From positions 1 to 64,000 of the forward strand of contig JAOZOU010000001.1 in assembly GCA_029933125.1 (NCBI GenBank): DNA of 64,000 nt, in the 5' to 3' direction. This document shows positions 1,339 through 55,523 of this stretch, piece after piece (within the stretch, counting starts at the first letter, position 1; each line of letters opens with the position of its first letter). This DNA is from a bacterium (GTDB lineage Bacteria; Arandabacterota; Arandabacteria; Arandabacterales; Arandabacteraceae). The notes under the pieces were generated by a model that saw only the letters and a list, made by a program, of their open reading frames with translations, was not told the origin of the DNA and did not search any database. The position numbers were made by a program, and so were the translations under genes.

Positions 1339-3015
1339 CTAGTGGGTAAGTTCCTCGAGAGGTTTCATGCGCCGTATGGCACGCTCGAGGACAGGTGAAA
1401 GGGCTCGGTCGTCATCCCTTACGAAGCGCCCTTCAACTTTTGGAGCAAGTGGTGAATGGTGCCTTATGTAGTCAATAACAGCCTGCTTTACACTCACATC
1501 TGTCCGGTGGACATATTGGGGATCAATCTGAGTAAGGATTTGAAGACCAATATTGCCACTTGCAATAAAATCAGTTGTAGCAACCCGGTAGATGCGATCG
1601 GGATCCCAGGGCTCACCATTGACGTAAAGCTCAACAATGCGATCGAAGTCAGGTCGCTTTCTGCTATAGACAAGCTTTATACCTGAAACATAGACACCCT
1701 GGCGCATGCCCTTTACGCGCCATTCAAGCACATGTTTAAGAAAAGAGCCTGTCATATCGAAATAAACAATTCTGTTGTCAAAGGGGACAGCTCTAAAAAC
1801 GTCCCTCGGTGTTATCACACCCATACCAATATTGGCTCTTATGCCTCCTAAGTTTGTGAAAGCAACATCGGCATCGACCGCCTCACGCATGGCATCTGTA
1901 ACAAGATCACCAAGCGGAGATTCACCGACGCCGACCCTGGTTATATCAACAAGGGCTCTCCCGATGGGCTCGTCCATCCCGACCTCAGCACTATCAACCC
2001 ATTCCCCTATGAACTGAGCCATGGAAGAATCAGGCCAGAATTCATCTTCATAGAGCGTTACTATAGAACCATTCCACTCAGGCAGCTCATAGCCCACTAT
2101 CTTGCGAGTATGCCGATCAACTAGGATCTCATAGATACCAACTCCCGTTCCTCTTCCATAGGTCTGAAGGCAAATCGTATGGGTCACTGGATCCTCCCAA
2201 CCCCCTTCATACCCAACATGGATGTGCCCACAGATCATAAGATCAATGCCTCTGACATGGTGGACGAGCTCCATGGCATTCATGCCATACCTTATCCTCT
2301 TTTCCACCCCGGTTTCGACCATCTCACGGTAGGCTGACCACACATCATAGGGAATCCCGAGATGGCCAATGACAAATATGAGATCGACTTTATCCTTAAG
2401 CTCGGCAATGTAATGCTCAGTGACCTCCTTGACATCGAGAAACCTAAGACGCTGGGCGGTCTCGGGAGGTGAATAATAGACCGTCTCTTCAGTTATGAGC
2501 CCGATTATGCCTATCTTAATCCCAGCAACCTCTTTTATGATGTAGGGCTTAAGGGGTGGAGGAATTTGACCTGTTTCAGCATCCACAAGATTCGCCCCAA
2601 GGACAGGGAATTTCGCCATATTCATGAGCTTGAAAGCATTGTCAACGCCAGCATCAAACTCGTGGTTGCCAGGGACCCAGAGATCGTAGCCCAGGCGATT
2701 CATGAACTCTATTACTACCTCTCCGCCTTTGTAGTTACCAACTGGCGTTCCCTGCCAAATGTCACCGGTGTCGATCAAGAGAAAGCCTTTGCCCTCTCGA
2801 TGTGCCTCTTTCCGCATTTTCTTAGCCAGTGTCGTAAGGGAAGCACCTCCACCAAGCTGTGGAGGAAATTCCTCATCCATAAAGGTTGCTCCCTCCCTGT
2901 CGATTCCACCATGAACATCATTTGTATGCATGATGATTATATGGATGGGTTCCTCTTTGCCATATCCAATTGAGGCAATAGCAATAACGACCAATGCGAA
3001 AAGCAACTTCTTCAT
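1339..3015 (-). CDS. UshA-like 5'-nucleotidase / 2',3'-cyclic phosphodiesterase, exported
   Basis: 558 residues, with a signal peptide (MKKLLFALVVIAIASIGYG). The N-terminal calcineurin-like metallophosphoesterase half carries all the metal motifs: MHTNDVHGG near residue 30, DTGD near 83, GNHEFD at about 116-121 and GHIHVG near 265. The C-terminal half is a 5'-nucleotidase substrate-binding domain (NLGGIRANI, YRVATTDFIASGN). The family hydrolyses nucleoside monophosphates, cyclic nucleotides or UDP-sugars outside the inner membrane. It is the last gene of the long minus-strand operon, ten bases behind the upstream barrel gene. Its position beside OB-fold, LTD and HHH proteins suggests nucleotide scavenging (inference). 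Exact substrate is not determinable. Confidence 0.9.
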   Translation of the reverse strand: MKKLLFALVVIAIASIGYGKEEPIHIIIMHTNDVHGGIDREGATFMDEEFPPQLGGGASLTTLAKKMRKEAHREGKGFLLIDTGDIWQGTPVGNYKGGEVVIEFMNRLGYDLWVPGNHEFDAGVDNAFKLMNMAKFPVLGANLVDAETGQIPPPLKPYIIKEVAGIKIGIIGLITEETVYYSPPETAQRLRFLDVKEVTEHYIAELKDKVDLIFVIGHLGIPYDVWSAYREMVETGVEKRIRYGMNAMELVHHVRGIDLMICGHIHVGYEGGWEDPVTHTICLQTYGRGTGVGIYEILVDRHTRKIVGYELPEWNGSIVTLYEDEFWPDSSMAQFIGEWVDSAEVGMDEPIGRALVDITRVGVGESPLGDLVTDAMREAVDADVAFTNLGGIRANIGMGVITPRDVFRAVPFDNRIVYFDMTGSFLKHVLEWRVKGMRQGVYVSGIKLVYSRKRPDFDRIVELYVNGEPWDPDRIYRVATTDFIASGNIGLQILTQIDPQYVHRTDVSVKQAVIDYIRHHSPLAPKVEGRFVRDDDRALSPVLERAIRRMKPLEELTH

Positions 3016-3024
3016 CCCAGCCCC

Positions 3025-4326
3025 CTAGAATCTACGACTTATGGTCACGAGTCCACTCAGCGAAGTCTCTTCAACCTTATCGGTGAAATCCCGTGAACGC
3101 GCACAGAAGATCGAATCATCGAAGAGATCGAAGTAGCGATAATCTCGCCAGCCAACCTTTCCGGCAAACTCCACTTTGAAACTGCCAACCATAAAGCCAC
3201 TACCTGCTGTGACAGCAGCTTCGCTTGTCTCACTATCGAGGGGGGATTGCCTGTAGAAAAATCCGAATCTCACAGGCCGCCCACTATAGAAGACATGCTC
3301 CACCCCAACATTAAACTCATAGGTATCCTCAAGGTTAAGTCCTGAAAGGGCGCTGTTGCCAGCATCTGACCAGTTGGTGAAGCAAGCGTTGAGCTCAACA
3401 ACCGTTAAGAGCTCATTACGGGGTCTAAAGGTGAAACCCAACCTAAAGGATGAGGGATAGGTTAGCTTGATGTCCCCCTCGCTTGCCCTGCGTGGAAGAT
3501 AATAGAGCAAGCCACCGAGTGAGGTGGCATTGTAGTCCCCTTTAATCTCTGTCTTGCCAACAGCCACAAAACCCACATCGAGTCTCTTGTTCACCCTGTA
3601 GGTTGCTCCAACTCTCAATCTCGTTCCCTTTAGTTTAGATGCTTTGAAATCGTCATGGGTACGCGTGGTAGTGTCATCCCAGCAAGACATCTTGGTAACA
3701 TCGATATTGGACAAGCGGCTTGTTATGTCAAAATCGCCGAAGAGATATTCGAGACCCACTCCAACCCCAATGTCATGAGTGAACTGCTTGCCCAGGCCAA
3801 AGGCAAGTGAGTAGATCGAACCTGTAGCATCGACCAAAGCATCTGCAATAGGCTTATCGCTTGGAACCGAGGTTGTGCTCCTGTCCCTTACCTCTTCGTG
3901 AAAATCATAGGTGAAGTCATAGACCTCTGCGAAGCTCACTCCCAGCGAGACCCCTTTCAGGTTCTCGAGCGGTCCCGTCGCTACGCCGCCGCTCAGACCG
4001 TTGTAGAGATTGGAGTTTCGCGAATAGCAGGTGTAGCCAAGCAGAGCATCAAAGCTATCGTAGGTTGGAAGCGACCACTTATCTTCGAAGGAGACAAAAC
4101 GGTAGGAGCCACTTGCTTCCCAACCCTTAAGCTTGCCGAGTAAAGCCGGATTGAGACCAGCTGCCTGAGGCGATTGTTCACAAAGCACACCAACCTCTCC
4201 CATCCCAAGACACCTTGCAGAACCAGGAAAGACCTGCGAGCCAACTGCCATTTCAAGGAAACTATATGCAAAAGCCATAGATGCCATCGCGAGAACTAGA
4301 GCAAGTACAAGCCCGATTTTGCTCAT
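3025..4326 (-). CDS. Outer-membrane beta-barrel protein (PorV/FadL-like)
   Basis: 433 residues with signal peptide MSKIGLVLALVLAMASMAFA. The mature start (GSARCLGMGEVGVLCEQSPQAAGLNPALLG) is the pattern of PorV/UPF0164/OmpP1-type barrels, where a short N-terminal plug with a paired 'A..NPA' motif precedes an amphipathic-strand barrel. Alternating aromatic strands run to the C-terminal phenylalanine (VTISRRF), a typical barrel-closing residue. The gene sits between the UshA-like gene and the HHH-barrel gene with 9 to 15 base gaps, so it is co-transcribed with them. Candidate roles are a channel, or a PorV-like shuttle for type IX-like cargo; neither is proved. Confidence 0.75.
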   Translation of the reverse strand: MSKIGLVLALVLAMASMAFAYSFLEMAVGSQVFPGSARCLGMGEVGVLCEQSPQAAGLNPALLGKLKGWEASGSYRFVSFEDKWSLPTYDSFDALLGYTCYSRNSNLYNGLSGGVATGPLENLKGVSLGVSFAEVYDFTYDFHEEVRDRSTTSVPSDKPIADALVDATGSIYSLAFGLGKQFTHDIGVGVGLEYLFGDFDITSRLSNIDVTKMSCWDDTTTRTHDDFKASKLKGTRLRVGATYRVNKRLDVGFVAVGKTEIKGDYNATSLGGLLYYLPRRASEGDIKLTYPSSFRLGFTFRPRNELLTVVELNACFTNWSDAGNSALSGLNLEDTYEFNVGVEHVFYSGRPVRFGFFYRQSPLDSETSEAAVTAGSGFMVGSFKVEFAGKVGWRDYRYFDLFDDSIFCARSRDFTDKVEETSLSGLVTISRRF

Positions 4327-4341
4327 GACAGTTGACCCCCT

Positions 4342-6783
4342 TTACCACATGTAATCAATCTGAATACGGAAGTATCTTTCCCTGTTAATTATGTTGGGCG
4401 CATCGATATTTAGACCATATTGCTGATTGTAGCGCCTCACATCGGTATTGGTTATTGGTAAGCCCCGATCATAGGTAGCCTTGAGCTCAAGCCAGAACCT
4501 TTCAGAAATACGATCTTGAACACTTATCCAGTAGCGTGTGGAGTTGCGATTGTCCACAGCAACAAAGTCGTTCTCCTCAAAGAACCAGATGAAACCATTA
4601 TAGGCAAGTGCCCCGATGCTTAGGCTCAAGCGGTCAGTGAAGTTGTGAATGGCATGCAGCAGCAATGCCTCCGATGGCTGAAAGGCTTGACCTGATGCTG
4701 GATGATCACCGTCGGGATCAACATCGCCAACAAGCCTCGGACGCGGTGGCCACTCGGTTCCGCCTCGCAAGTATGTGAACTCAACCATGTCGTATCTTGA
4801 GAGACGCATCTCAAGCTCCAAGCGAGTCTCATTGAGACCATAACTCGTAGGAGTAAGGCGGTCACCTCGATTTCTACCCTGAAATTGCTGCCTGACCTTA
4901 AATCTCAAGGGATAGAGAAGCCTCACTTCAAGATTACCAACAAAACGGTAGTAAGTTGCACCATCGGCAACCCGTGTCCAGCGATCATATTCGAATCGAG
5001 GAATTATGCTCTGAGTGATACGATAACGTGATGAGAAATATATCCCTCGCTCAGCCTGGGGAGTAACTGAATTGTCGAAAATGAGACCATAGAGAGGGTC
5101 TGTCAAGTAGTATTGATCCTCAAGGATCGTTCCCTTGAAGCGCTCGTAATTGGAGTAACCCCTGCAATAAGGGTTGTCAAACCCAAGATCATAGTCACGA
5201 TAGAGGCACAGGAAATTGAGATTGTTGTACTGTGCCCAGAGCGATGCAACGAGGGCCTTAGGATCATCTCCGAGCTTAAGTGTACTGCCGTCTTCATCCA
5301 GCTCGGCATATTCTGCCTGGAGGCAGTAATTCTTAAATACACTCTGGAATTCGACTCCTAAAACCCGGCGGAATTTACCTGGGCTACGATACGACGCAAA
5401 GATCTCATTGTCAGCCTCGCTGACATGATCAAACCTTTCGATTACAGTCTCCCCACCTCGGGGATTGAAATAGCGATTGTAATGGCTTTCATAGCCTGAG
5501 ATTCCAATATGAGTTCCCGGGGTGATTATGTATCTGAGATTACCACCGAAGAGGCGCTCATCAAGAGCATCTTTCATCGGGGGAAGACCATAGCGGGTAA
5601 GAACCTTATTATCAATCGTTGGCGTTAGCAGAATGTAACTGAGGACCGAACCGTCCTCATTAAGAACTGCATCTTTCTTATCATCTGAATAGAAACCAAG
5701 CAACTTCCATTTCTTCCATTCAGCCTGAAGGGCGATTCCCCTGAGGCGATACTCGTCGCTCCTCGATATATCACCGAGGATGCCATAGTAGCGCTTGTCC
5801 CAGGAATAACCGGTTTTCCTTGGCTTGAAATAGTCGCTATTCTCCATCACAAGTCCCTGCCCGAAGCCGACCAGATAGTCACCAACGTAGATCTTTTCTA
5901 CTCTTACGGGCCCAAGTCTTAGTCCTTCAAGTCCCACAAAGCCTTTAAGGTGTTCATCGAATCGCTGTTCACCAGCACCTCGCCACGAAAGCAACCCACC
6001 TCTTACAGTGAGGCTATCGTTAAGATAGTACTTGAGGTAAAGCTTCTGAGTTACCTCAGGTCTTGTCTTGTCAAGATTGAGCCTCTCGTACCACGAATCA
6101 TAGACGCCAGAAGCCGAGAATACATCTTCCCTGAGGAGCTCATCGAGATCACCATCGTAGAAGGCACTTCTCGCTCGCAATTGATAGCGGCCATGAAGTT
6201 CACCCTTCTGCTCCCTGTCCTTGTATCTCACAAGTGATCTGGCGTTCATATACCCCCAGCCAGATAGGCCCGGAGTATATCTGAGGTCTCTTCTTCCACG
6301 ATAAGAACCTATAGCCTTGCGATGCTTTACAATTGCAACAGCATCCACAGGTGAAACATTCTGAAGATTCATAAGATCGTAAACACTTGCGGTGTTAATG
6401 TTGGGGGGATCCTTGGCAATATCTATCCAGAGATCGATAAGCCCCTCATTGCTACCCTCAGATGCTCCCCACATTCTCACGTTGCGCTGGGCAACCTGCA
6501 TACGCTGCGCAAGGTAGTCGGCTTCCACAGGCTCAATGCGCACCAAGGGTTTGAGAATTTCGAGCTCCTCAGCATCTATCCCAGGCACCTTCATGAGATC
6601 GTAAACACTTTTGAAATACGACCTATATTCACGATATTCATAGATTGCCTTTGCATGCTCAGGCGGAATGGGAAGTTGCATGATCTCTTCGAGGGTGGCT
6701 GAGTTAAGATCTATGGGGAACTCCGCTGCTCTAAGCATGGTCGCAGCAAGAGCAATAATGACAAGGACGAGCACCTTCTTCAT
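4342..6783 (-). CDS. ComEA-like helix-hairpin-helix domain fused to outer-membrane barrel (copy 1)
   Basis: 813 residues with signal peptide MKKVLVLVIIALAATMLRA. Two ComEA-type helix-hairpin-helix repeats follow: IDLNSATLEEIMQLPIPPEHAKAI...VPGIDAEEL (about 25-80) and INTASVYDLMNLQNVSPVDAVAIVKHRKAIGSYRGRRDL (about 130-185). The remaining 600 residues are aromatic-rich beta strands ending in YFRIQIDYMW, as in a large outer-membrane barrel. HHH domains of this class bind DNA or proteins without sequence specificity; their fusion to a barrel is seen in FCB genomes but has no assigned role that I know of. A shorter paralogue lies at 51728-53572. GGGGGAG precedes the ATG. It is in the middle of the long minus-strand operon. 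Confidence 0.8.
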   Translation of the reverse strand: MKKVLVLVIIALAATMLRAAEFPIDLNSATLEEIMQLPIPPEHAKAIYEYREYRSYFKSVYDLMKVPGIDAEELEILKPLVRIEPVEADYLAQRMQVAQRNVRMWGASEGSNEGLIDLWIDIAKDPPNINTASVYDLMNLQNVSPVDAVAIVKHRKAIGSYRGRRDLRYTPGLSGWGYMNARSLVRYKDREQKGELHGRYQLRARSAFYDGDLDELLREDVFSASGVYDSWYERLNLDKTRPEVTQKLYLKYYLNDSLTVRGGLLSWRGAGEQRFDEHLKGFVGLEGLRLGPVRVEKIYVGDYLVGFGQGLVMENSDYFKPRKTGYSWDKRYYGILGDISRSDEYRLRGIALQAEWKKWKLLGFYSDDKKDAVLNEDGSVLSYILLTPTIDNKVLTRYGLPPMKDALDERLFGGNLRYIITPGTHIGISGYESHYNRYFNPRGGETVIERFDHVSEADNEIFASYRSPGKFRRVLGVEFQSVFKNYCLQAEYAELDEDGSTLKLGDDPKALVASLWAQYNNLNFLCLYRDYDLGFDNPYCRGYSNYERFKGTILEDQYYLTDPLYGLIFDNSVTPQAERGIYFSSRYRITQSIIPRFEYDRWTRVADGATYYRFVGNLEVRLLYPLRFKVRQQFQGRNRGDRLTPTSYGLNETRLELEMRLSRYDMVEFTYLRGGTEWPPRPRLVGDVDPDGDHPASGQAFQPSEALLLHAIHNFTDRLSLSIGALAYNGFIWFFEENDFVAVDNRNSTRYWISVQDRISERFWLELKATYDRGLPITNTDVRRYNQQYGLNIDAPNIINRERYFRIQIDYMW

Positions 6784-6794
6784 ACTTTCTCCCC

Positions 6795-7664
6795 CTAGAA
6801 AGTCCCCCTCAGAGCAATGTGATGCGTACCAGGAAGCACAGGATGAGTCGAATAGGAGTAATCAAGGTTAAAACCCATATGGCCAACGCTAAAGCCCCCA
6901 CAAAGCGAGTTGGGCTCTGTCTGAAATCCAAATCTCACATTAAGGAAGTCAGTCACCATGAACTGCATCCCCATGTGCACCTCAACCTTCTCACCACGAA
7001 GGGCCCTCAGGTCGAGCTCGGTTACCACACCATAATAGGGCTGATATGCGACACCAGCAGTTACCCATTGGGGCAGGGGCTCGCTTGTAGTCGCCCCTAC
7101 AGAGGGCTCATTTATGTTTTTGAGCAGGAACCCAACACGTGTCCGGTCACGCAGAATACCCAGCACTCCGACATCAAGCCCAAAGGTTGTCTCGCTACCA
7201 AGATCACCTGCCGCCGTGCTGCCAAAATCGAGGGTATAGAGGTTGAATGCACCACCTAGATAGAGCGAAGAGTGAATATCTTCCATTACTGAAATAGCAT
7301 AGCCCAGGCTCAATGTCCACTCGTCCATGAGGCTCACACCTTCATAGTCAACACCAAAACTCCTGAAACTCACACTTGCCCGCTGGTCATTCCCGATTGG
7401 CATAGCATAGGAGAAGAAAGTGAGAGTCTCAAAGGATTGAGAATTGGGTCGAAACATGGAAGCATAGACATTGGGTGACTCCGAAAGGATAAGACAAGCC
7501 GGATTGTAGAAAACTGCAGAAGCATCATCCCCACTTGCAACCCATGCAGCTCCCATGCCTCTCGCCTTACTGCTTACGTCTATCGAGTCGAAAACATAAC
7601 CCCATGCAGAGCTCGCTATCAACCCGAGGCACAAAAGCAAAACACCCACCTTGCTTTTAGCCAC
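6795..7664 (-). CDS. PorV/PorQ-like outer-membrane protein
   Basis: 289 residues. The start is GTG (7664) with AGGAGGGATAGAG just upstream, overlapping the region right after the previous stop codon. Signal peptide VAKSKVGVLLLCLGLIASSAWG. The mature N-terminus FDSIDVSSKARGMGAAWVASGDDASAVFYNPACL is the hallmark of PorV/PorQ-type barrels, and the C-terminus HHIALRGTF closes a barrel. In type IX secretion PorV carries cargo proteins with C-terminal sorting domains to the sortase. The gene is directly downstream of two secreted proteins with FlgD-like C-termini, consistent with a cargo-carrier pairing (inference). The rest of a type IX apparatus is not in the window. Confidence 0.75.
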   Translation of the reverse strand: MAKSKVGVLLLCLGLIASSAWGYVFDSIDVSSKARGMGAAWVASGDDASAVFYNPACLILSESPNVYASMFRPNSQSFETLTFFSYAMPIGNDQRASVSFRSFGVDYEGVSLMDEWTLSLGYAISVMEDIHSSLYLGGAFNLYTLDFGSTAAGDLGSETTFGLDVGVLGILRDRTRVGFLLKNINEPSVGATTSEPLPQWVTAGVAYQPYYGVVTELDLRALRGEKVEVHMGMQFMVTDFLNVRFGFQTEPNSLCGGFSVGHMGFNLDYSYSTHPVLPGTHHIALRGTF

Positions 7665-7675
7665 CTCTATCCCTC

Positions 7676-10567
7676 CTATCTGAGTTGCGTACCAACGACA
7701 ATAGGCATGCTCTTTGTGGAAATCCTGCCCGTGCCGTGCTCAACAATCTCAATGAAGCAGACGTAGAGTCCAGGCGGCACAGGCTTACCATCATCACCAG
7801 TTCCATCCCAGAGGACCTCAGATCTGCCAACAGATTCTCCACTGTAAAGCGTCCTCACGAGTCGGCCAGCTGCGTCAAAGACGCGTATGACGACCTGGCT
7901 TGAAGCCTTGGCACCAAAGCTTATCCGATAAGTCTCATCACCACACGATGGGCAAAAAACGTAGGCATCACCCTTGAGCACAACATCCTCTGGAAAGGCA
8001 TCTTCAATGATTGTGATATCACTTTCAAAGCGGGGAACAAGTTCGTAGCCTTCGAGGAAAGGCTTGGTGTAGTCATATTGAAGCAGCACACCCTTCACCC
8101 GCACATACATGCCAACCTTGTAACGACTGAAATCGATCGAAGTAAAGTTCTGGTAGATCTGGATGCCACCCGAACCATCATCAATGTAGAAGTCGTGATC
8201 GGAAGCACTGACGATAGCACCCTGAGTCTCTATCAGCCGTCCTTCATTCTCCTCCGCTCCAACCTCGCCTGTCTTGAGAACAAGTGCATCTGGCTCGGGA
8301 TAATGCCGTGAAAGGATGGTCAAAGCTGCTGGATTGCTCATATAGATCTCAGTGGTGCTCCCCGCTGATGTACCAATGTATTCTTCAACCTCACCCGTGA
8401 CCAGAACCAGATCGCCAAGCTCAGGGCGGGGTGATGGCACATCGTAGGAGAAGACATTCACGCCACAACCGTCGAGGGCCTGAACGTAAATTGATGAATA
8501 GCTTGGCTGGAAGATACCAGGCGGAACCGTTATGAAACCTATCATGCTCACATTATGACCGTTGAGCGGCGAGAAACCACGCTCGTCAAAAGCCTGAACC
8601 TCGCAGCCATCACTGCACCCGATAGAGGTCAGATAGAAGGTTATGGTGGTATCGAGGGTGGCTTCGAGATCAATGCCAGCAGCTCCTGAGATCTCGAGCG
8701 TTGCATTGCCGCCAGGCTGATTAGAACTGAAAAGCAAAACCTTCTCACCTGAAAGCGATTGGTAGATTCGAATCATACGGGTTCCGTTGAGGAGGAAGTT
8801 ATCAGCACTTACCGATCTTAAGGGCTCACTGAAAATCAGTTCAGTCACATCATTTGAATGACTTATAACCTCAACCACCCTTGCCTTGAGGTAGCCGATC
8901 TCGTTGGGCTCGCCCGGTGTGGGTATGGCTGTCAGGGTGGCTTCATAATCAGACCAGGGTTCATGTGAGACGTGATTAATGAGTCCGTAACCAATGGGAG
9001 GAATCATGGGAAAGGCTGGCAGGGGGAATTCATCACACATGTCCCCTGCACAAACAAGCGTGTCTCCATACTCAACATAGTCAACAAGAATCGAAAGGCT
9101 TGGCTCACGCCAGAGTGATATGGCTTCATGGCGCTGCTCGCCATCGCAAACTATTCCATCGCCTCCGAGTCTCCCAAGGGGTGCGATGGGAGCTTCAACA
9201 TCAGGCTCGAAACCAAAGCGTGCTGTGAATCCATATCTCGAATTGGCAATCACGAAGTAGCCACCGGGTGGAATGGTGTCTGAAGAACCAAACCTATACC
9301 TTATCGCAACCTCACACCGCTCCTCCCCTGTGACCTCGCAGAGCACAGCCCCCTCGAGCGTTGCCCTCTCAGAGCCTGCATTGTAAAGCTCGATAAAGGC
9401 ATCGCTCGAAGAGGTGAAGCCATCATTTGGATAGACCTCACTTATGACAACTGGACCAAGAGCATAGATTGCCCTGAGAGTGGGCAGGTGCTCGATGAGA
9501 TCAAAAGTCGTCCCATCAACTGAGGTCCTGACCGCAATCTCTGAGACAATTGCCTGATCGGGTGGTACGATGCCCTTGAGCACAACCTCACCATAGGTTG
9601 CCTCATCTGTGATACTCGCCGATCGCACAATCACCCGATTCCCCACAATCTCAAAAGTGGCTCCGCTCAGTCCCGGACCTCCGATCTCAGCAAGTGGCTC
9701 ATCCCAGCCCCATTCGTCAGCCACTGGCACTTCAACTTCAAGTGCAGTGATGGTATCAATCTCATTGCCAAAGACCTTTATCTTGAGATCAAACTCACCT
9801 GAACCAACTTCCGCAAGCGCAGGCTCGGCAACTGCCGTTCCGCAACCGGCACCCATCCTGATAAAGTCACCTCGCGAGCGAGGCCAGAGGGTATACTCAC
9901 TCAGATAGGGCTTGGACGGATCGTTCTGGACGACAACTCCGACAACGATCACCGGAGTCTTGGGAACATCGGATCCGATTATGTCCGTATCAGCATCAAT
10001 ATGAATTATAAAGGTGGTATCGCCATCGGTGGCTTCGATATCGAAATCGCCGGAAGCCTGACTCCAGAGCGTCGAATCAAAAGTGACTTTGGCAACCTTG
10101 ACAAGCCTGCCCTCATAGGGCTCATTGGGTGGGCTGACCTCACGCCTCAGATCCAGTCCCCTTATCAGGACGGGCCCAGGCACGGTGCCTTTTCCAACAA
10201 CCACCACGTCATTGGTGCTCAGGGGAACAAGCTTAGTATTGCCACTATAAGGCCAGCTGAGCTCATCCACGTCAATCCGGCCTGTCACGGTGACCGAATC
10301 ACCGACCTCGACAGATATGAAGCCAGCTCGCCGCTTACTTATGCGGATTCCACCTGTTCTGTCCTGAAGATAGAAGTCAATGCCACTCGTGGCAAAATTC
10401 CTATTGGCAACTGTGACAACCCCTGAGACAGTTACAATCTCACCGGAAAGATAGTAGATGGGGATGCCATTCTTGTCGATCTCCTTGACATCAGCAATCG
10501 GCAACGCTCTAGCTATACCTGCAAGAGCAACCACGAGCACAAGAGCTGATACAACTTGCTTCCTCAC
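7676..10567 (-). CDS. Secreted OB-fold / lamin-tail-domain protein with FlgD-like C-terminus
   Basis: 963 residues. GTG start overlapping the previous stop (GTGA), with GGAGAAGG upstream; signal peptide to about residue 21. Domains in order: OB-fold (about 40-235, GIDFYLQDRTGGIRI...VTVTGRIDV), a beta-rich spacer, a lamin-tail domain (about 370-540, VVISEVYPNDGFTSSSDAFIELYN), another spacer, two OB-folds (about 645-880), and a FlgD Ig-like C-terminal domain (VVIRVFDAAGRLVRTL...WDGTGDDGKPVPPGLY). The C-terminal third is paralogous to the whole of the next gene upstream. LTD and YhcR-type OB-folds are common on secreted nucleases, but no nuclease motif was found. Likely surface-attached or secreted; function unknown. 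Confidence 0.8.
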   Translation of the reverse strand: MRKQVVSALVLVVALAGIARALPIADVKEIDKNGIPIYYLSGEIVTVSGVVTVANRNFATSGIDFYLQDRTGGIRISKRRAGFISVEVGDSVTVTGRIDVDELSWPYSGNTKLVPLSTNDVVVVGKGTVPGPVLIRGLDLRREVSPPNEPYEGRLVKVAKVTFDSTLWSQASGDFDIEATDGDTTFIIHIDADTDIIGSDVPKTPVIVVGVVVQNDPSKPYLSEYTLWPRSRGDFIRMGAGCGTAVAEPALAEVGSGEFDLKIKVFGNEIDTITALEVEVPVADEWGWDEPLAEIGGPGLSGATFEIVGNRVIVRSASITDEATYGEVVLKGIVPPDQAIVSEIAVRTSVDGTTFDLIEHLPTLRAIYALGPVVISEVYPNDGFTSSSDAFIELYNAGSERATLEGAVLCEVTGEERCEVAIRYRFGSSDTIPPGGYFVIANSRYGFTARFGFEPDVEAPIAPLGRLGGDGIVCDGEQRHEAISLWREPSLSILVDYVEYGDTLVCAGDMCDEFPLPAFPMIPPIGYGLINHVSHEPWSDYEATLTAIPTPGEPNEIGYLKARVVEVISHSNDVTELIFSEPLRSVSADNFLLNGTRMIRIYQSLSGEKVLLFSSNQPGGNATLEISGAAGIDLEATLDTTITFYLTSIGCSDGCEVQAFDERGFSPLNGHNVSMIGFITVPPGIFQPSYSSIYVQALDGCGVNVFSYDVPSPRPELGDLVLVTGEVEEYIGTSAGSTTEIYMSNPAALTILSRHYPEPDALVLKTGEVGAEENEGRLIETQGAIVSASDHDFYIDDGSGGIQIYQNFTSIDFSRYKVGMYVRVKGVLLQYDYTKPFLEGYELVPRFESDITIIEDAFPEDVVLKGDAYVFCPSCGDETYRISFGAKASSQVVIRVFDAAGRLVRTLYSGESVGRSEVLWDGTGDDGKPVPPGLYVCFIEIVEHGTGRISTKSMPIVVGTQLR

Positions 10568-11640
10568 TTGAGCCTTCTCCCAATAACAATGGGCAATGTT
10601 CTGGTTGTTACCTCACCATTGAGGGGATTTTCTGCGGTCACAGCAATGTGGTAAAGTCCTATAGGAAGTGCTTCCATCAGTTCATTGCGACCATCCCATT
10701 CGAGCTCGGTTCTACCACAGCGTGTCAGATGATCCTCAAGTGTAGCAACAAGCCTGCCATAGTCATCATATATCCTGAGCTCAACCCTTCCAAGATGAGG
10801 ACCAGCGAAGCGGATATAGACTTTCTCGCCGCACTCAGGGCAAAAGATTCTTACGTTCTCACCGCTTTGATTTGTGATCTCGAGCATGGCACTGCTTATG
10901 GTCGTATCAGGAGTACAAACAGGAACTGCAACATCTCCATATTCAGGGCTTCGTGGCCAGATGCGATAGTCGCTCGTATAAGGAGGAGTCGCATCACTCT
11001 GAGCCACGACACCTGTAACCGTCACCACGTCGCCCAGAAAGAGATCCTGCCAGACAGGATCTGCACTGAAATTGCCACTCTGATCTCTAACCACTATGGG
11101 ACCTGTTCCATCATCTATGGTAAACTCACGTGTGGATTCCTTGATGACAACTCTCCCAGTTGCTCTCACGAATTTGCCTTCATTCTCCTCTCTGCCTATA
11201 TCACCGGTCGCCATGGTGATAGGTTCAGGTGCTGGCCCCTTACCGAGGACAACTACATTTGAGATGCTCGAGAAGACAATTTCAGTCGTTGCACCAAAAT
11301 TCGCTATATACTCCTCAACCGTACCCGTCACCCTTATGGTGTCACCAAGAGTGGAGCTGTCGTGAGGAGCGAGTCCGGGAATGGGATCGAACCCGAAGAC
11401 ATTGATGCCACAGTCATCATCTCCCACTCCACGAATATATATAGAAGTGTATTGAGGGACGAAAATACCTGGAGGGACTGTCACGATTCCCTTTATGGTT
11501 ACAACCTGGCCATTGAGAGGCGAGAGTCCCTGCGGATCAGATGCCTGAACATCACAGATTGTGGTAGCGTACAGGCCAGGGGCAATCACCAGTACAAGAA
11601 GGGTAAGTATTGGAAGAAAGATTGGAGGTAATAATTTCAC
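10564..11640 (-). CDS. Secreted OB-fold protein with FlgD-like C-terminus
   Basis: The ORF track begins at a TTG (11694), but AAGGAAGG precedes an in-frame GTG at 11640, and that start gives a clean signal peptide (VKLLPPIFLPILTLLVLVIAPGLYA). The product is about 358 residues: two OB-fold modules (GLSPLNGQVVTIKGIVTVPPGIF..., then EENEGKFVRATGRVV...IDDGTGPIVV) and a FlgD Ig-like end (VELRIYDDYGRLVATL...WDGRNELMEALPIGLY...PIVIGRRLK). It closely parallels the C-terminal third of the 963-residue neighbour, so the pair probably arose by duplication. Its stop overlaps the neighbour's GTG start, implying coupled translation. No catalytic motif is visible. Confidence 0.8.
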   Translation of the reverse strand: MKLLPPIFLPILTLLVLVIAPGLYATTICDVQASDPQGLSPLNGQVVTIKGIVTVPPGIFVPQYTSIYIRGVGDDDCGINVFGFDPIPGLAPHDSSTLGDTIRVTGTVEEYIANFGATTEIVFSSISNVVVLGKGPAPEPITMATGDIGREENEGKFVRATGRVVIKESTREFTIDDGTGPIVVRDQSGNFSADPVWQDLFLGDVVTVTGVVAQSDATPPYTSDYRIWPRSPEYGDVAVPVCTPDTTISSAMLEITNQSGENVRIFCPECGEKVYIRFAGPHLGRVELRIYDDYGRLVATLEDHLTRCGRTELEWDGRNELMEALPIGLYHIAVTAENPLNGEVTTRTLPIVIGRRLK

Positions 11641-11690
11641 ATCAAGCCTTCCTTTGAATTGGCTTATTTTAACTAAATGCCGGCTTAAGG

Positions 11691-13025
11691 TCAACCCTTC
11701 TTAACCAGTCCAAGCTTCTCCCTCAAGCGCTTGAGGCGCTTTATCTCGGCATTCGCCTTAGCTGCTGCCATATCCAGAGCTTGCTTTATGTCTGCGTCAC
11801 CCCTTAAGACAGCTTCAATTGAACGCTCTGCAAGATACCTTCTGCCCGCGTACCATCCAGCAATCTTGGGTTCAAAGGTCGCATAGTTGAGCTGATTGAA
11901 AGCATCTTCTAATCCGGGGAATTCCTCAAAACGCTTGCGCAATATCTCTGAATCGAAAGCACTCCTTCTTACAGGAACATAGAAAGTGCCAGCTGCCCAG
12001 CGAGCTGTCTGCTCGGTATCGGTAAACCATTTTATGAATTCCCAGGCGGCTTCCTGCTCCTCCTTGCTTGCCTTGGCAAAGATTACAACATTCGTACCAG
12101 CAATTGTCACACCAGGCCGCTTACCCATCGGGATGGGGGCAATTCCGAGATCAAAGTCATACTTGCCTTTTATGAAAGCCAGAGAAACCGTTGAGCCTTC
12201 CATCATGCCAACCTTACCCGCCAGGAAGTCATTCTGATATTCAAAGCCTGAAGCAACAAAGCCAACACTGTCGGCGAGCAACTTCTTCATGAAAGCCAGA
12301 GCTTCAACTCCTTCGGGGCTGTTGAATGCAACCTCCTGACCATTGGGAGCAAGAAACTCTCCTCCATTCTGGATGAGAAGATTACCAAACATCCATACAT
12401 TGACCTGACCTGCAGTTCCCCATATCTCAGGATGGCCATCACCATCGACATCTTTTGTAAGGCGGCGAGCGTAGCTGAGATATTCCTGCCATGTCCTCGG
12501 TGGATGATCGGGATCCAGCCCAACCTCTCTGAAGAGATCCTTGTTGTAGAACAACGCTCGCACACTTTTGTTAAAAGGAAATGACCAGATGACGTCATCC
12601 CACATATTGTTCTCGATAAAAACAGGAAGGATATCTGCCAAACTCTCCTCGGAAAGCCCATTTGGACCATGAATGAATTTCTCAATTGGAACTATGCTTC
12701 CACTTATTATGAGCTCAACCGTCCAGTTCTCGTAGGCCTGCGCCATTGTTGGGGGTTTGCCAGCAGCAACAGCCGCCATAATCTTCTGGCTAAGTGCTGT
12801 ATAGCGACCCATGGAGACTGAGACTACATGGATATTGGGATGAGTGGCATTGAATTCATCTATAAGGCTTGTGAGCACCCTACCAAGCGGCCCACCCATT
12901 GCATGCCAGAAGGTAATCTCCACCCCACCTTTGTGCTTTCTACCACCAGAACACATCAAACTGAGAGTGATTCCGACAACGAGCAAGATCTTAGCAAGCC
13001 TAGCCCTTGATACCACTACGTGCAT
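11691..13025 (-). CDS. Sugar ABC transporter substrate-binding lipoprotein (family 1)
   Basis: 444 residues. Lipoprotein signal near residues 15-26 (LVVGITLSLMCSGG, lipid-modified Cys about 25). The fold is that of MalE/UgpB-type binding proteins: VEITFWHAMGGPLGRVLTSLIDEFNATHPNI, then a dense set of family motifs such as VDGDGHPEIWGTAG and AAWEFIKWFTDTEQTARWAAGTFYVPVR. It overlaps the upstream permease by 26 bases and is immediately followed by the OB-fold gene. Substrate is probably an oligosaccharide or glycerophosphodiester, but cannot be fixed by eye. No ATP-binding subunit for this importer is encoded nearby. Confidence 0.92.
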   Translation of the reverse strand: MHVVVSRARLAKILLVVGITLSLMCSGGRKHKGGVEITFWHAMGGPLGRVLTSLIDEFNATHPNIHVVSVSMGRYTALSQKIMAAVAAGKPPTMAQAYENWTVELIISGSIVPIEKFIHGPNGLSEESLADILPVFIENNMWDDVIWSFPFNKSVRALFYNKDLFREVGLDPDHPPRTWQEYLSYARRLTKDVDGDGHPEIWGTAGQVNVWMFGNLLIQNGGEFLAPNGQEVAFNSPEGVEALAFMKKLLADSVGFVASGFEYQNDFLAGKVGMMEGSTVSLAFIKGKYDFDLGIAPIPMGKRPGVTIAGTNVVIFAKASKEEQEAAWEFIKWFTDTEQTARWAAGTFYVPVRRSAFDSEILRKRFEEFPGLEDAFNQLNYATFEPKIAGWYAGRRYLAERSIEAVLRGDADIKQALDMAAAKANAEIKRLKRLREKLGLVKKG

Positions 13026-14868: not shown

Positions 14869-16110
14869 TTAGTTCCAAACGTGCACGACATAGGATTCCC
14901 CATCAGTGGTAACTGAGATATTGCCGTGCAACACCTGGTCATATCTTCCCGCATTGGGATAGGCTCTATCAGTAGTATAGTAGTCAACATCATAAGCACG
15001 CAGAAGATTGAGAACACTTTGATCAAAGACACCATCATTCTCGGCGAGCGAATTGGAAATCAGCCCGATCCTTGGAGTAACAATACGTAAGAATTCTTCT
15101 GAAGTTGCATCGCTGTTGCCATGATGTCCAACCTTAAGAATATCACTATCAAGGAGGGCACCGTATGACTTTATCATACGCTGCTCGACAAAATCCTCAG
15201 CATCACCAGTCAGAAGAATATCTACCTCGCCAAAGGTCACTTTCAAGACTATCGAATCCGAATTTAGCCTGTCGTCATCGGTGCCTGTTAGGTAGTACTT
15301 CCCTGCTCCGGCACTCAGAACCTCCACTGTGACCCCATCCTCGTTGTCCCATGCAAGCACAGACTTATTGAGGTTCGTATCACCCTCAGCCAGACTATCG
15401 CGAGGTACATTGAACTCATCAAGCTTTGCCCCGACCGATGCCCAAACACTCGAATACGGCTCGGCTGGAGCCATAAAGACTGTCTCACTGTAGAGGGGAA
15501 TAAGATCGAGAAAGCCACCGTAATGGTCACCGTGGTTGTGTGTAGCAATCATATAAGCGATCCCATCAGGTGGACTTATGCCTCTGGCATTGAGAAATTC
15601 AAAAAGATCACTGGCATGCTCAAACTCACCCAGACTCCCATAGCCAGCATCGATCATGACATTGGTCCCATTGGGAAACTCAAGAAAGTTGCAATCTCCC
15701 CAGCCAACATCGACCACCGTATAGACGAGCAAATTTCCAGTCTGCGGCTCGTCAATCAGGAAATCAACTTCGTCGGTTGTCGTCATGTTACCACTGATAT
15801 CACGTGCGAGAATTCGGAAATAGTAGGTTCCTGAATCAGCGTCAACTAATCGAACGAAGTGATCCGTGCCACCATCGGAGACATTGTAGCCATAGTGATC
15901 ATAGATCCCGGGACGCTCGCCATAGTGGAGAACACATGTAGCGGGCTCATCCGTATGCCAAGACACAACTCCCTCATTGAAAGATATGGAGTTCACCTGG
16001 GGAGGTGTCAGATCCGGCTGGAAAACGCTCCTATCCTTCTCTGCACAACCATAAAGCAGAACAATTGAAACAATGGCGACTGCTGCAATCCTTGCTTGAT
16101 CCCGTACCAT
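14869..16110 (-). CDS. Metallo-beta-lactamase-fold lipoprotein (ComEC C-domain-like)
   Basis: The ORF track starts at 16164, but GGGGAGAG lies just before the in-frame ATG at 16110, giving MVRDQARIAAVAIVSIVLLYGC, a standard lipobox. Residues about 35-130 form a fibronectin-III-like domain (NSISFNEGVVSWHTDEPATCVLHYG...YYFRILARDISGN). The rest is an MBL fold like that behind ComEC: VDVGWGDCNFLEFPNGTNVMIDAG, then the metal motif ATHNHGDHYGG, LLTGDAE and KVGHHGNSDAT. Homologues hydrolyse phosphodiesters or nucleotides; some in ComEC are proposed to degrade the non-transported DNA strand. It is the first gene of the long operon and faces the divergent M16 peptidase gene. Confidence 0.85.
   Translation of the reverse strand: MVRDQARIAAVAIVSIVLLYGCAEKDRSVFQPDLTPPQVNSISFNEGVVSWHTDEPATCVLHYGERPGIYDHYGYNVSDGGTDHFVRLVDADSGTYYFRILARDISGNMTTTDEVDFLIDEPQTGNLLVYTVVDVGWGDCNFLEFPNGTNVMIDAGYGSLGEFEHASDLFEFLNARGISPPDGIAYMIATHNHGDHYGGFLDLIPLYSETVFMAPAEPYSSVWASVGAKLDEFNVPRDSLAEGDTNLNKSVLAWDNEDGVTVEVLSAGAGKYYLTGTDDDRLNSDSIVLKVTFGEVDILLTGDAEDFVEQRMIKSYGALLDSDILKVGHHGNSDATSEEFLRIVTPRIGLISNSLAENDGVFDQSVLNLLRAYDVDYYTTDRAYPNAGRYDQVLHGNISVTTDGESYVVHVWN
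16059..16064 (-). promoter_or_regulatory. Alternative -35-like hexamer position check for minus-strand operon
   Basis: Listed only to record that this position, inside the MBL gene, has no usable signal. The supported minus-strand candidate is given separately at 16136-16164. Confidence 0.05.
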
Positions 16111-16132
16111 TTTCTCTCCCCTGTTATCTCCC

Positions 16133-16161
16133 TTGACTATCACCCATTGCCACTCTAAAAT
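16133..16161 (+). promoter_or_regulatory. Candidate sigma-70 promoter of the M16 peptidase gene
   Basis: TTGACT (16133-16138) and TAAAAT (16156-16161) are spaced by exactly 17 bases, each matching consensus at five of six positions. The predicted transcript would start near 16168, about 55 bases before the ATG, with GGAGGATG as ribosome site. It overlaps the opposing candidate promoter, so the two transcription units may compete. Confidence 0.55.
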
Positions 16162-16164
16162 CAA
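16136..16164 (-). promoter_or_regulatory. Candidate promoter for the ten-gene minus-strand operon
   Basis: On the minus strand TTGATT (16164-16159) and GATAGT (16141-16136) are separated by 17 bases; each matches the sigma-70 consensus at four of six positions. It lies about 25 bases before the ATG at 16110 and overlaps the better plus-strand promoter of the M16 gene. Confidence 0.35.
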
Positions 16165-30533: not shown

Positions 30534-31550
30534 CTAGTGAGTGGCCGTATAATCAGTCACCCTAATCTTGCCGGCTACAATATCCTTCTTTATCTTCTCA
30601 ATGCGTTCGATGACACTCTTAGGTATCAAATCCTTATTGTATTCGTCAAGAGCATATCCCACTCCATTGACATCAAGCCCATAGACGTGTATACCGCCAG
30701 AAAACTTACCCTCGACGACATCCTTTATTATCTCATAAACAGCAACGTCTACACGCTTGAGCATACTTGTAAGAACATGACCAGGTGCCATGTAGTTCTG
30801 ATTGGCATCCACACCTATTGCATAGAGACCGCGTTCCTGTGCCGCATCTATAACTCCATTTCCTGTTGAGCCCGCTGCCTGAAAGATTATGTCGGCTCCG
30901 CGATCGAATTGACTCAAAGCAAGGCTCTTGCCTCTGACAGGATCGTGGAACGCCTCAGGACCTGAACCTGCATATGCTACGATGACGTCAGCATCCGGAT
31001 TGACATAATGAACCCCTTCAGTGTATCCGACCTCGAATTTGTGAATCAGGGGGATGTCCATGCCTCCGATGAAACCAACCTTACCGGTCTTGGTCATGAG
31101 TCCTGCTATCGCACCCACAAGAAATGAACCCTCATGTTCCTTGAAAACAAGCGATGCAACATTAGGGCGTTCAACCACCGCATCTATTATCGCAAACTTG
31201 GTATTTGGGAATTCCTTGGCAACGCGGTCGAGAGCATCCCTCATTAAAAAACCAACGGCGATAACAAGATCGAAACCCTGCTCAGCATATTGTCTGAGAT
31301 ATTTCTCATCCTCAGCCATCTGTTCAGGCTGACCATAGATAGGCTGGATCTTGAGCTCATCCTTCGCTCGCATAAGCCCCCTGTAAGCTGAATCATTGAA
31401 AGATTTATCGCCCAGTCCACCAACGGAAAGCACAAGTCCAACCCTTATCGAGGAAGTCTGAGGAGGCTTTTCCTTCCTAGAGCAGCCACCCAGCGCAATT
31501 ACAAAGGCAAGAAACAAGATACTCGCTCTGAGCAAGGCCATCCACCTCAC
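30534..31550 (-). CDS. BMP-family (PnrA/Med) nucleoside-binding lipoprotein
   Basis: 338 residues from a GTG that overlaps the adenine deaminase stop (GTGA); an ATG three codons on (31541) is an alternative start. Lipobox IALGGCSRKE near residue 22. Motifs: VGLVLSVGGLGDKSFNDSAYRGLMRAKDEL, NTKFAIIDAVVERPNVASLVFKEHEGSFLVGAIAGLMTKTGKVGFIGGMDIPLIHKFEVGYTEGV, and DIIFQAAGSTGNGVIDAAQE. PnrA-type proteins bind purine nucleosides for ABC import. It is the likely binding protein for the NupOPQ-like importer at 20942-24433 and is coupled to adenine deaminase, which supports a purine substrate. Confidence 0.93.
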   Translation of the reverse strand: MRWMALLRASILFLAFVIALGGCSRKEKPPQTSSIRVGLVLSVGGLGDKSFNDSAYRGLMRAKDELKIQPIYGQPEQMAEDEKYLRQYAEQGFDLVIAVGFLMRDALDRVAKEFPNTKFAIIDAVVERPNVASLVFKEHEGSFLVGAIAGLMTKTGKVGFIGGMDIPLIHKFEVGYTEGVHYVNPDADVIVAYAGSGPEAFHDPVRGKSLALSQFDRGADIIFQAAGSTGNGVIDAAQERGLYAIGVDANQNYMAPGHVLTSMLKRVDVAVYEIIKDVVEGKFSGGIHVYGLDVNGVGYALDEYNKDLIPKSVIERIEKIKKDIVAGKIRVTDYTATH

Positions 31551-33259
31551 TTTACGAAAACATCAACAAACTTGAATTCACGAACGTCGAATAGTCCAAG
31601 ATCAGTGAGTTTGATGTCGGGAACAACTGCTAAAGTAACAAACGAAAGTGCCATGAATGGATCACTTATCGTCACACCGAGGCTATGCGCAACATCATCT
31701 AGCTTTTCCAGATCATCCTTGACCTTACTCATTGGCTCTTCTGACATCAAACCTGCGACCGGAAGAGGAACCCGAGCCATGACTTTACCATCACAAACAA
31801 TCGTAAGACCACCCTTCATACGACATATGTCGATGACCGCTTCGAGCATATCCTCATCATTCGTTCCAGCAACAACGATGTTGTGGGAATCATGTGAAAC
31901 ACTCGATGCCATAGCCCCTCGCTTAAGCCCCAACCCCTTGAGAAAGCCCTTTCCGATGTTATCTGAAGCATGATGTCTTTCAACCACTGCGACTTTGATG
32001 AGATCTCTCTCTGGGTCACTAACCGCTAAGCCACCAGCAACCTTCGCCTCAGCCACAACCTCCTTTGTCTTTATCTGCTTGGGTTGAATTTCAATTGCCC
32101 TGATCTTGCTTCCTTTCGCAGGGATTTTGAAATCATCAAGAGTGAGAAACTTCACATTGACCGAACTCCTCAAGTTTATCTTTGGTGGAGTAACCTCCAG
32201 CGGCAGGAGCTCGCCATCCTTGGCAACCAGCTTGCCTCGCTTAAACACCATCTCGACTTTAAAGTCATCGAGATTGTCAAGTACCAGGATATCTGCAATG
32301 AAGCCCGGCGCAATTGCCCCAAGATTGTCGAGCTTGAAGTATTCAGCACAATTCACAGTTGCCAGTCTTATGGCTGAGACGGGTTTGATACCATTGGCAA
32401 TCGTTGTGCGCACCATAAAGTCGATGTGACCCTCTTCGAGGATATCCTTCGGATGGCGGTCGTCAGTTACAAAAAAGCACCTGTGAATGTTGTCAGGGGT
32501 GATGATGGGCAAAAGGTCGCGTAGATTCTTGGTTAGCGAACCTTCCCGCAACATAACATACATCCCGAGTCTAAGCTTCTCTCTGGCCTCATCCACACTT
32601 GTCGCCTCGTGATCGCTCTTGACCCCTGCCGCTACATATGCACAAAGATCACGTCCTGTGAGATCAGGAGCATGCCCATCAACCCTCTTCTCGTTTGCCA
32701 TAGTGATTTTATCCAGAAGGTCCTGATCAAGTCCAAGCACACCGGGATAATTCATAACTTCCCCGATGCCGAGGACCCACTTCTCGGTAAGGAGGGGATA
32801 AAGATCAAATCCCTTAAGACTCGAACCGCTGGTTTCAAACTCAGTGGCTGGCACACAAGAGGGAAGCATGAGGAAGACATTTAAGGGATTGAATTTGCTC
32901 GATCTCAGCATGTACTGTATTCCCTCAAGACCGAAGACGTTGGCTATCTCGTGAGGATCAATAACTACAGACGTAGTACCTCTGGGCACAACAGCTCGGG
33001 CAAACTCCCGCACCTCCACCATTGAGCTCTCTATATGCACATGACCATCTATAAAGCCCGGTGATAGGAATTTACCGCTGAGGTCAATCTCCTCCTTGCC
33101 TCGATAGTCACCAATCCCGACGACCAGACCGCCAAAGATAGCCACATCAGCGGGATAGATCTCGCCTGAAAGGACATTGACAAGTTGAGCTCCTTTAAGA
33201 ACGAGATCACAAGGTTTCCTGCCCCTCGCAACTTCAATTATCTCTCCAAGCCCAGCCAT
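31547..33259 (-). CDS. ade: Adenine deaminase
   Basis: 570 residues, the usual length. Amidohydrolase metal motif SPGFIDGHVHIESSMVEVREFARAVVPRGTTSVVIDPHEIANVFG (about 65-115), then NEKRVDGHAPDLTGRDLCAYVAAGVKSDHEAT and FVTDDRHPKDILEEGHID. C-terminal part has the conserved RHHASDNIGKGFLKGLGLKRGAMASSVSHDSHNIVVAGTN block. It converts adenine to hypoxanthine plus ammonia in the cytosol, the entry step to the hypoxanthine/xanthine pathway served by the molybdenum hydroxylase genes upstream. AGGAGCG precedes the ATG; the BMP lipoprotein gene overlaps its stop. Confidence 0.97.
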   Translation of the reverse strand: MAGLGEIIEVARGRKPCDLVLKGAQLVNVLSGEIYPADVAIFGGLVVGIGDYRGKEEIDLSGKFLSPGFIDGHVHIESSMVEVREFARAVVPRGTTSVVIDPHEIANVFGLEGIQYMLRSSKFNPLNVFLMLPSCVPATEFETSGSSLKGFDLYPLLTEKWVLGIGEVMNYPGVLGLDQDLLDKITMANEKRVDGHAPDLTGRDLCAYVAAGVKSDHEATSVDEAREKLRLGMYVMLREGSLTKNLRDLLPIITPDNIHRCFFVTDDRHPKDILEEGHIDFMVRTTIANGIKPVSAIRLATVNCAEYFKLDNLGAIAPGFIADILVLDNLDDFKVEMVFKRGKLVAKDGELLPLEVTPPKINLRSSVNVKFLTLDDFKIPAKGSKIRAIEIQPKQIKTKEVVAEAKVAGGLAVSDPERDLIKVAVVERHHASDNIGKGFLKGLGLKRGAMASSVSHDSHNIVVAGTNDEDMLEAVIDICRMKGGLTIVCDGKVMARVPLPVAGLMSEEPMSKVKDDLEKLDDVAHSLGVTISDPFMALSFVTLAVVPDIKLTDLGLFDVREFKFVDVFVK

Positions 33260-33274
33260 CGAACGCTCCTTAGT

Positions 33275-34231
33275 TTAGGCTACCAGGCGTGTGCATCTTC
33301 TTCCCTGAACAGCCTCATAGAGGAGATGCGGAAGGGTTATAATCACCTCTTCACCACCATTCTCGAGGAATTCAATTGCAGCCTCTATTTTTGGTCCCAT
33401 GCTGCCAGGTGGGAACTGCCCTTCGGCAAGGTAGCGTTTGGCTTCCTCTATCGTCAATTTGTCAAGATCCTTCTGGTTTGGCTTGCCATAATTGAGAGCA
33501 ACCTTCTCAACCTGCGTGAGGATAACAAGTACCTGAGCCCTGAGCTGGCGTGCAAGCACACTCGAGGCTCTATCCTTGTCGATGACTGCTTCGACACCTC
33601 TCAGGTCGCCACTCTTATCCCTCACAACCGGGATGCCACCCCCGCCAACAGCAATCACAATCGCCCCGGAATCAATTGCCTTCTCTATCCCTCGCCACTC
33701 AACGATCTCAAGAGGTTTGGGTGAAGGAACAACCCGCCGGTAACCACGTCCACAATCCTCTATTATCACCCAGCCCTTTTCCCTCGAAATTCTTTCTGCC
33801 TCATCACGTGTATAGAAGGGACCGATGGGTTTGGTTGGATTCTCAAAAGCTGGATCATTCTCATCCACAACAACCTGGGTGATTATTGTGAAGACATCTT
33901 TGTCAATTTTCATCTGCCTGAGCTGGTTCTGGAGGACCTGCTGTATCATGTAGCCTATTCCTCCTTCAGAATCAGCACCGCAGATGTCAAGAGGCATGGG
34001 AGGAATGATATCTTTTGCCATTTCATTCCTTATAAAGATGTTACCAACGACGGGCCCATTTCCATGAGTTATTGCAATCAGATGCCCCTCCTCGATAAGC
34101 TTCGCAACATGGACCATCGTTGATTTGGTTAGTTCATATTGCTCCTCAATTGTTCCTTGTTTGTTAACCGGAATGATAGAATTACCGCCAAGTGCAATTA
34201 CCATAGTCTTTGTACGCTGTTGCGATGTCAC
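33275..34231 (-). CDS. arcC: Carbamate kinase
   Basis: 318 residues. GTG start overlaps the RarA stop (GTGA) and has AGGAGGAAG eight bases upstream. Motifs: VIALGGNSIIP, AITHGNGPVVGNI, PLDICGADSEGGIGYMIQQ, VVPSPKPLEIVEW and VIAVGGGGIPVV. It transfers phosphate from carbamoyl phosphate to ADP, giving ATP, ammonia and CO2. In purine- or hydantoin-fermenting clusters it harvests energy from ring carbamoyl groups. No carbamoyltransferase gene (YgeW or ArcB type) is in the window to supply carbamoyl phosphate. Confidence 0.96.
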   Translation of the reverse strand: MTSQQRTKTMVIALGGNSIIPVNKQGTIEEQYELTKSTMVHVAKLIEEGHLIAITHGNGPVVGNIFIRNEMAKDIIPPMPLDICGADSEGGIGYMIQQVLQNQLRQMKIDKDVFTIITQVVVDENDPAFENPTKPIGPFYTRDEAERISREKGWVIIEDCGRGYRRVVPSPKPLEIVEWRGIEKAIDSGAIVIAVGGGGIPVVRDKSGDLRGVEAVIDKDRASSVLARQLRAQVLVILTQVEKVALNYGKPNQKDLDKLTIEEAKRYLAEGQFPPGSMGPKIEAAIEFLENGGEEVIITLPHLLYEAVQGRRCTRLVA

Positions 34232-35574: not shown

Positions 35575-35623
35575 TTCTAATTCTTGGCCTCATTCCCAAA
35601 AACCACCTTGAGTCGCACGAAAC

Positions 35624-40000: not shown

Positions 40001-40004
40001 AACT

Positions 40005-41971: not shown

Positions 41972-41985
41972 ATCCTCAGCCTCCT

Positions 41986-42408: not shown

Positions 42409-42409
42409 T

Positions 42410-55519: not shown

Positions 55520-55523
55520 GGCT

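Follow-up and report, generated by a model that had tools for sequence, protein, structure and literature searches.

Two gene clusters in the 64,000-nucleotide stretch of bacterial DNA analysed here (the window) are two copies of a real outer-membrane module, and the first of them, cluster 1, represents an operon that is conserved in other genomes. The module is so far undescribed within the literature searched: searches for papers that combine HHH with PorV or with type IX secretion found nothing there, which agrees with the first-pass annotation, whose author knew of no system of such composition. The reading favoured here, to which a probability of about 0.4 is assigned, is that the module is an outer-membrane complex, assisted by the type IX secretion system (T9SS), that captures extracellular DNA and brings it in.

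The genes that the first-pass annotation had assigned to the two clusters are all present where it placed them and all lie on the minus strand. Transcription of cluster 1 starts with a surface protein of two OB-like domains and a C-terminal FlgD-like (FlgD_ig) domain, recognised by Pfam and fold matches (10564-11694). A further surface protein follows, in which Pfam finds DUF5689/OB, LTD and OB domains and again a FlgD-like (FlgD_ig) C-terminus (7676-10567). The next gene, the partner gene of the module, encodes a PorV/PorQ-like barrel (6795-7664; PorV_fam, 3.5e-16). It precedes the HHH-barrel (4342-6783), here called type 1, which consists of a signal peptide, two degenerate HHH_3 domains (8e-23 and 8.9e-07 in Pfam) and a barrel of about 24 strands. 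A FadL-type outer-membrane barrel related to BamG (3025-4326) comes next, and a UshA-like two-domain phosphoesterase with a signal peptide (1339-3015; Metallophos 2.4e-11, 5_nucleotid_C 5.2e-37) is the last gene of the operon. Upstream, at a distance of about 8 kb and also on the minus strand, there is a gene for a ComEC-type metallo-beta-lactamase protein (14869-16164), which is conserved at this place in the clade of the window; its membership in the module is uncertain.

The association of these families, seen in the window by the first-pass annotation, recurs in many other genomes. Searching named genomes with the type-1 HHH-barrel gave 164 relatives. The best 80 of these 164 were used to compare neighbourhoods, and they come from about ten FCB phyla (Eisenbacteria, Zixibacteria, KSB1, Calditrichota, Krumholzibacteriota, Gemmatimonadota, Fibrobacter, Latescibacterota, Neomarinimicrobiota, Cloacimonadota and others). 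Clustering the neighbouring genes without supervision recovers a constant set of five families, with order and strand preserved. When only loci with sufficient flanking sequence are counted, the PorV-like gene lies directly upstream of the type-1 HHH-barrel in 66 of 68 relatives and the OB/LTD/FlgD surface protein upstream in 49 of 52, while the BamG-like barrel and the UshA-like gene are found downstream in 63 of 70 and 53 of 60, respectively. The operon families nearly vanish at distances of more than 6 kb from the HHH-barrel; there are, for example, 70 PorV-like matches in 721 kb of near flank and 4 in 336 kb of the more distant flanks. Such an association greatly exceeds what chance would produce.

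Neither Pfam nor NCBIfam names the HHH-barrel as a family, and only its HHH domain is recognised there. The barrel that had been described behind this domain is present in the AlphaFold model built with 49 relatives (pLDDT 81, pTM 0.76), in which the HHH helices are followed by a barrel with 24 strands of at least 9 residues, as counted from the listed elements. A sequence search of the PDB with the HHH-barrel profile matched HHH domains only, and Foldseek with the barrel returned only generic outer-membrane barrels at a TM-score of about 0.3 and no close solved relative. Because the matches are of this generic kind, a functional analogy of the barrel to ushers is not claimed. The short blocks reported to be shared by the two HHH-barrels of the window turn out to be part of a more extensive relationship: with the HHH domains excluded, the barrels are homologous over 435 columns (hhalign, 99.1%). 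Clusters 1 and 2 thus hold ancient paralogues, named type 1 and type 2.

Cluster 2, which is also on the minus strand, is transcribed from a surface protein with two LTD domains and a CHU_C/FlgD domain (55524-57239; Pfam LTD 1.9e-21, CHU_C 6.5e-08). A PorV-like barrel follows (54611-55576), which has no direct library match and is homologous to PorV-like relatives. The next gene encodes an LpxG/YaeI-like calcineurin-type phosphoesterase (53581-54384; LpxG 2.4e-26), and the last the type-2 HHH-barrel (51728-53572), in which HHH_3 is joined to a barrel that hhalign identifies as a paralogue of 4342-6783. The phosphoesterases of the two clusters are of different kinds (two-domain UshA-like and LpxG/YaeI-like), and a phosphoesterase as an element common to both clusters is rejected. 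Among the loci compared, the LpxG/YaeI-like enzyme adjoins an HHH-barrel only in the window's own family, so that it is local to that family and probably not a core part. It perhaps has a role in lipid A metabolism. An M28 peptidase gene lies directly downstream of the type-2 HHH-barrel at four other loci (L059, L061, L063, L064), and in the window such a gene (47159-49276) is found two genes away. A Y1_Tnp (IS200-like) transposase gene adjoins cluster 2 in the window (57240-58115) and at L061 and L062, in varying orientation.

The type-2 HHH-barrel is found as a single copy in 76 of 90 Bacteroidia-like genomes. These form the class around G069, which is taken as Bacteroidia because SprA matches among its members reach about 2,800 bits. 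A PorV-like gene is positioned directly upstream of it at 32 of the 42 Bacteroidia-like loci examined and at 17 of 32 loci outside this class. The minimal core of the module is therefore the pair of PorV-like barrel and HHH-barrel. Two type-2 loci (L209 and L213) carry a mini-operon of surface protein, PorV-like barrel and HHH-barrel with further barrel or PorV-like genes, an arrangement intermediate between the two types. In a small genome without detected SprA (G101, locus L176), several HHH-barrel pieces lie beside PorV-OB-OB-HHH and MBL-LTD-FlgD fusions.

The first-pass annotation had proposed that the module binds and processes extracellular nucleic acid or nucleotides and feeds the purine catabolic genes of the window. 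In a reading of this kind, the module would scavenge extracellular nucleotides or nucleic acid for nutrition, with catalysis mainly by the UshA-like protein and with purine catabolism as the subsequent step. The UshA-like gene is indeed present in 53 of 60 operons; all 12 checked metal, catalytic and substrate-binding residues are intact in the window protein, and the catalytic residues are intact in most other operons checked. The window also contains adenine deaminase and other purine-type genes: the ranges 31547-46833 and 49252-51731 hold adenine deaminase, two amidohydrolases, a PALP lyase, XdhC, YqeC and MobA-like genes, together with FAD- and 2Fe-2S-binding subunits, an M20 peptidase and PreA/PreT-like genes, a cluster which we take to resemble the yge/yqe purine cluster of E. 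coli. Cluster 2 adjoins part of a purine-type gene cluster in one further genome (G003) as well. However, in 12 operons, nearly all from Neomarinimicrobiota, the UshA-like protein has lost most of these residues and is catalytically dead, and the gene is kept at an unchanged position in the operon (L110, L112, L114, L117, L120, L121, L122, L132, L133, L136, L154, L155). Nucleotide hydrolysis therefore cannot be the purpose common to all operons. Furthermore, the UshA-like gene is missing from nearly all type-2 loci, the second phosphoesterase of the window is unrelated, and none of the 30 surface proteins examined has a nuclease domain. The proposed feeding of purine catabolism has support from synteny inside the window's own family only, since purine genes do not reappear next to the module among the neighbours of the best 80 relatives, and a link of the module to the purine genes was not retained. 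Nutritional scavenging is accordingly an improbable explanation, and it is unlikely that nucleotide feeding is what the module chiefly does.

The barrel encoded at 3025-4326 raises another possibility, namely that the module is an accessory arm of a BAM machinery of the Bacteroidota type, in which the BamG-like barrel and the surface proteins stand in for BamG and BamH. These two proteins are core BAM parts in Bacteroidota, and conservation extends to most of the FCB phyla (PMC12611786). Like BamG, the operon protein is a FadL-family barrel, and its top match in the PDB, the closest solved relative, is a BamG (9hiv_F, 5.8e-21). It differs from BamG proper in that it reaches only 72 bits (4.8e-20) against the NCBIfam BamG model, for which the cut-off is 250. 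In genome G000 the operon barrel is the best BamG candidate, but five others (G014, G147, G162, G217, G052) have a separate, better one elsewhere. With a score so far under the cut-off and better candidates elsewhere, identity with BamG was rejected and 3025-4326 is treated, on sequence grounds, as a probable BamG paralogue. As a BamG-like gene is absent from many type-2 loci and some SprA-positive genomes lack the operon altogether, a role as a BAM arm is very improbable.

The PorV-like barrel and the surface proteins invite comparison with type IX secretion. In that system, PorV and the PorP/SprF shuttles work with cargo carrying a C-terminal sorting domain, and PorU, PorV, PorQ and PorZ form an attachment complex. 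The module similarly links a PorV-family barrel to a surface protein whose tail is Ig-like: the C-terminal domains match FlgD_ig/CHU_C in Pfam, and the fold matches of the surface protein 10564-11694 include PorZ and PorU, at low TM-scores, besides FlgD and OB-folds. There are differences, however. The barrel at 6795-7664 scores 59.7 bits against PorV_fam (cut-off 90) and 14 bits against PorQ (cut-off 220) and does not match the PorV equivalog model (cut-off 250), so that it fails the equivalog cut-offs for PorV and PorQ proper, and the PorV-like barrels of the module are far below those for PorV, PorQ and PorV2. The tails are FlgD_ig/CHU_C-like, and neither the type A nor the type B T9SS sorting model matches the surface proteins of the window. 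The module adds the HHH-barrel, the BamG-like barrel and the UshA-like protein, and its operon has no PorU or sortase.

The main rival to the DNA-uptake reading, possible though doubtful, is that the module is simply a surface-anchoring device of the T9SS type with no special link to DNA, in which the OB/LTD proteins are the cargo, the PorV-like barrel is both their dedicated shuttle and their anchor, and the HHH-barrel and the BamG-like barrel complete the assembly. The FlgD-type C-terminal domain and the PorZ and PorU fold matches are consistent with such a device, as is the rule in F. johnsoniae that genes for type B cargo pair with dedicated shuttle barrels (PMC12618676). SprA was present in all 14 genomes first tested (G000 and 13 others), and among 290 genomes it occurs in all 35 with a type-1 HHH-barrel and in 63 of the 67 with any HHH-barrel, a correlation that is, however, confounded by common ancestry. 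Some Bacteroidia-like genomes that lack SprA (G069, G322, G359 and, at 95% completeness, G346), in contrast, retain the type-2 HHH-barrel, and strict dependence on T9SS is therefore rejected for type 2. In three of these genomes (G069, G322 and G359) the PorV-like neighbour is gone as well. The T9SS thus probably serves the side of the surface protein and the PorV-like barrel and not the HHH-barrel, and the retention of the latter in these genomes supports the DNA-uptake reading. Plain anchoring also leaves unexplained the ComEA-type fusions and the ComEC linkage described below, and the DNA-uptake reading is favoured over it.

The DNA-uptake reading does not rest on the HHH domains of the HHH-barrels themselves, which the first-pass annotation had taken as DNA-binding. 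These proteins resemble ComEA in having the HHH_3 fold at their N-terminus, but they differ in that this domain continues into a barrel of about 24 strands and its hairpins lack the G-h-G motif. This motif, through which such hairpins contact the DNA backbone, is absent from 68 of 69 type-1 units, 13 of 14 type-2 units and 16 of 17 Bacteroidia-like type-2 units. Among 13 stand-alone ComEA proteins taken as controls, 12 carry the motif in both hairpins, one of them being the ComEA encoded by the window's own genome. The HHH units of the HHH-barrels are mostly acidic, with mean net charges of -4.0 for type 1, +0.4 for type 2 and -3.8 for Bacteroidia-like type 2. Judging from these sequence features, the known mode of DNA binding is improbable for these domains, and canonical binding by them is rejected. 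The degenerate hairpins speak for plain anchoring.

Com-type genes are linked or fused to the module in some relatives and not in the window itself. In seven lineages, the PorV-like partner carries ComEA-type HHH domains at its C-terminus. The G-h-G hairpins are intact in six of these fusions (L164, L171, L174, L176, L207, L208), and in the seventh (L209) one hairpin is intact and one is lost. Six of the seven adjoin an HHH-barrel, where L208 is counted by a separately placed type-2 match, and L207 is 10 kb from one; the L176 fusion also carries two OB-folds. ComEC lies downstream on the same strand at 5 of 168 HHH-barrel loci, in four lineages, where about 0.14 would be expected by chance (assuming one ComEC per approximately 3 Mb and a 5 kb flank per locus, and ignoring truncated contigs). 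It overlaps or is 4 bp away in L169 and L231, which belong to one family, and is at 149 bp in L174, 2.4 kb in L175 and 4.4 kb in L092. ComEC-type MBL genes occur within the operon at three loci (L113, L126, L138). These fusions and the presence of ComEC next to HHH-barrels are the reason why a link to nucleic acid, the part of the earlier functional proposal that survives, is still favoured. The loss of G-h-G, the low frequency of ComEC linkage (only 5 of 168) and a mismatch between HHH-barrel and ComEC in Bacteroidia-like genomes weaken the DNA-uptake reading: two such genomes have an HHH-barrel and no ComEC (G350, 100% complete, and G348), and 13 have ComEC and no HHH-barrel. A ComEC match is found in 34 of 34 type-1 genomes, which is weakly informative by itself because ComEC is widespread.

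The surface proteins add to the support for DNA uptake. DUF5689 is present in 7 of the 30 examined, and the OB-fold matches of the surface protein model include POT1 and SSB. Transformation of Riemerella anatipestifer needs a DUF5689 surface protein, an outer-membrane barrel and an HHH protein, and the screen that found them reported no homologues of known outer-membrane uptake parts (PMC8459023). These Riemerella genes (RA0C_RS04920, RS04915 and RS02645) are among the closest known parallels to the module; compared by description only, however, the Riemerella barrel is carboxypeptidase-regulatory/TonB-receptor-like and its HHH protein is periplasmic.

By combining these observations, we infer the export route, the formation of the complex and the passage of DNA as follows. 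The OB/LTD proteins would leave the cell by type IX secretion, through its SprA channel, as is suggested by the resemblance of their C-terminal domain to T9SS sorting domains. The PorV-like barrel would then receive them and retain them at the surface, by analogy with the dedicated shuttles of Flavobacterium, and their OB-folds would bind DNA. The 24-strand HHH-barrel may provide the passage, and its acidic HHH domain would serve as a dock for a periplasmic partner and not for DNA. ComEA-type HHH domains would pull the DNA in and pass it on to ComEC; these domains are fused to the periplasmic end of the PorV-like barrel in the seven lineages, and elsewhere, as in the window's genome, a separate ComEA would take their place. 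The UshA-like protein would be an accessory to this DNA-uptake complex.

The HHH-barrel is a large outer-membrane protein found in 76 of 90 Bacteroidia-like genomes and in about ten further phyla, for which no paper was found within the literature searched. The pair of PorV-like barrel and HHH-barrel is a concrete candidate for the route of DNA over the outer membrane in transformable Bacteroidota. Tentatively, this pair may be the port by which DNA passes the outer membrane of FCB bacteria; it would be present in nearly all Bacteroidia, and in type 1 it would have been elaborated with DNA-catching proteins delivered by the T9SS. If this is true, the port would supply the missing outer-membrane step of natural transformation in Bacteroidia. 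If the substrate is not DNA, the module is still a conserved one of the PorV family that is needed in any account of the FCB outer membrane.
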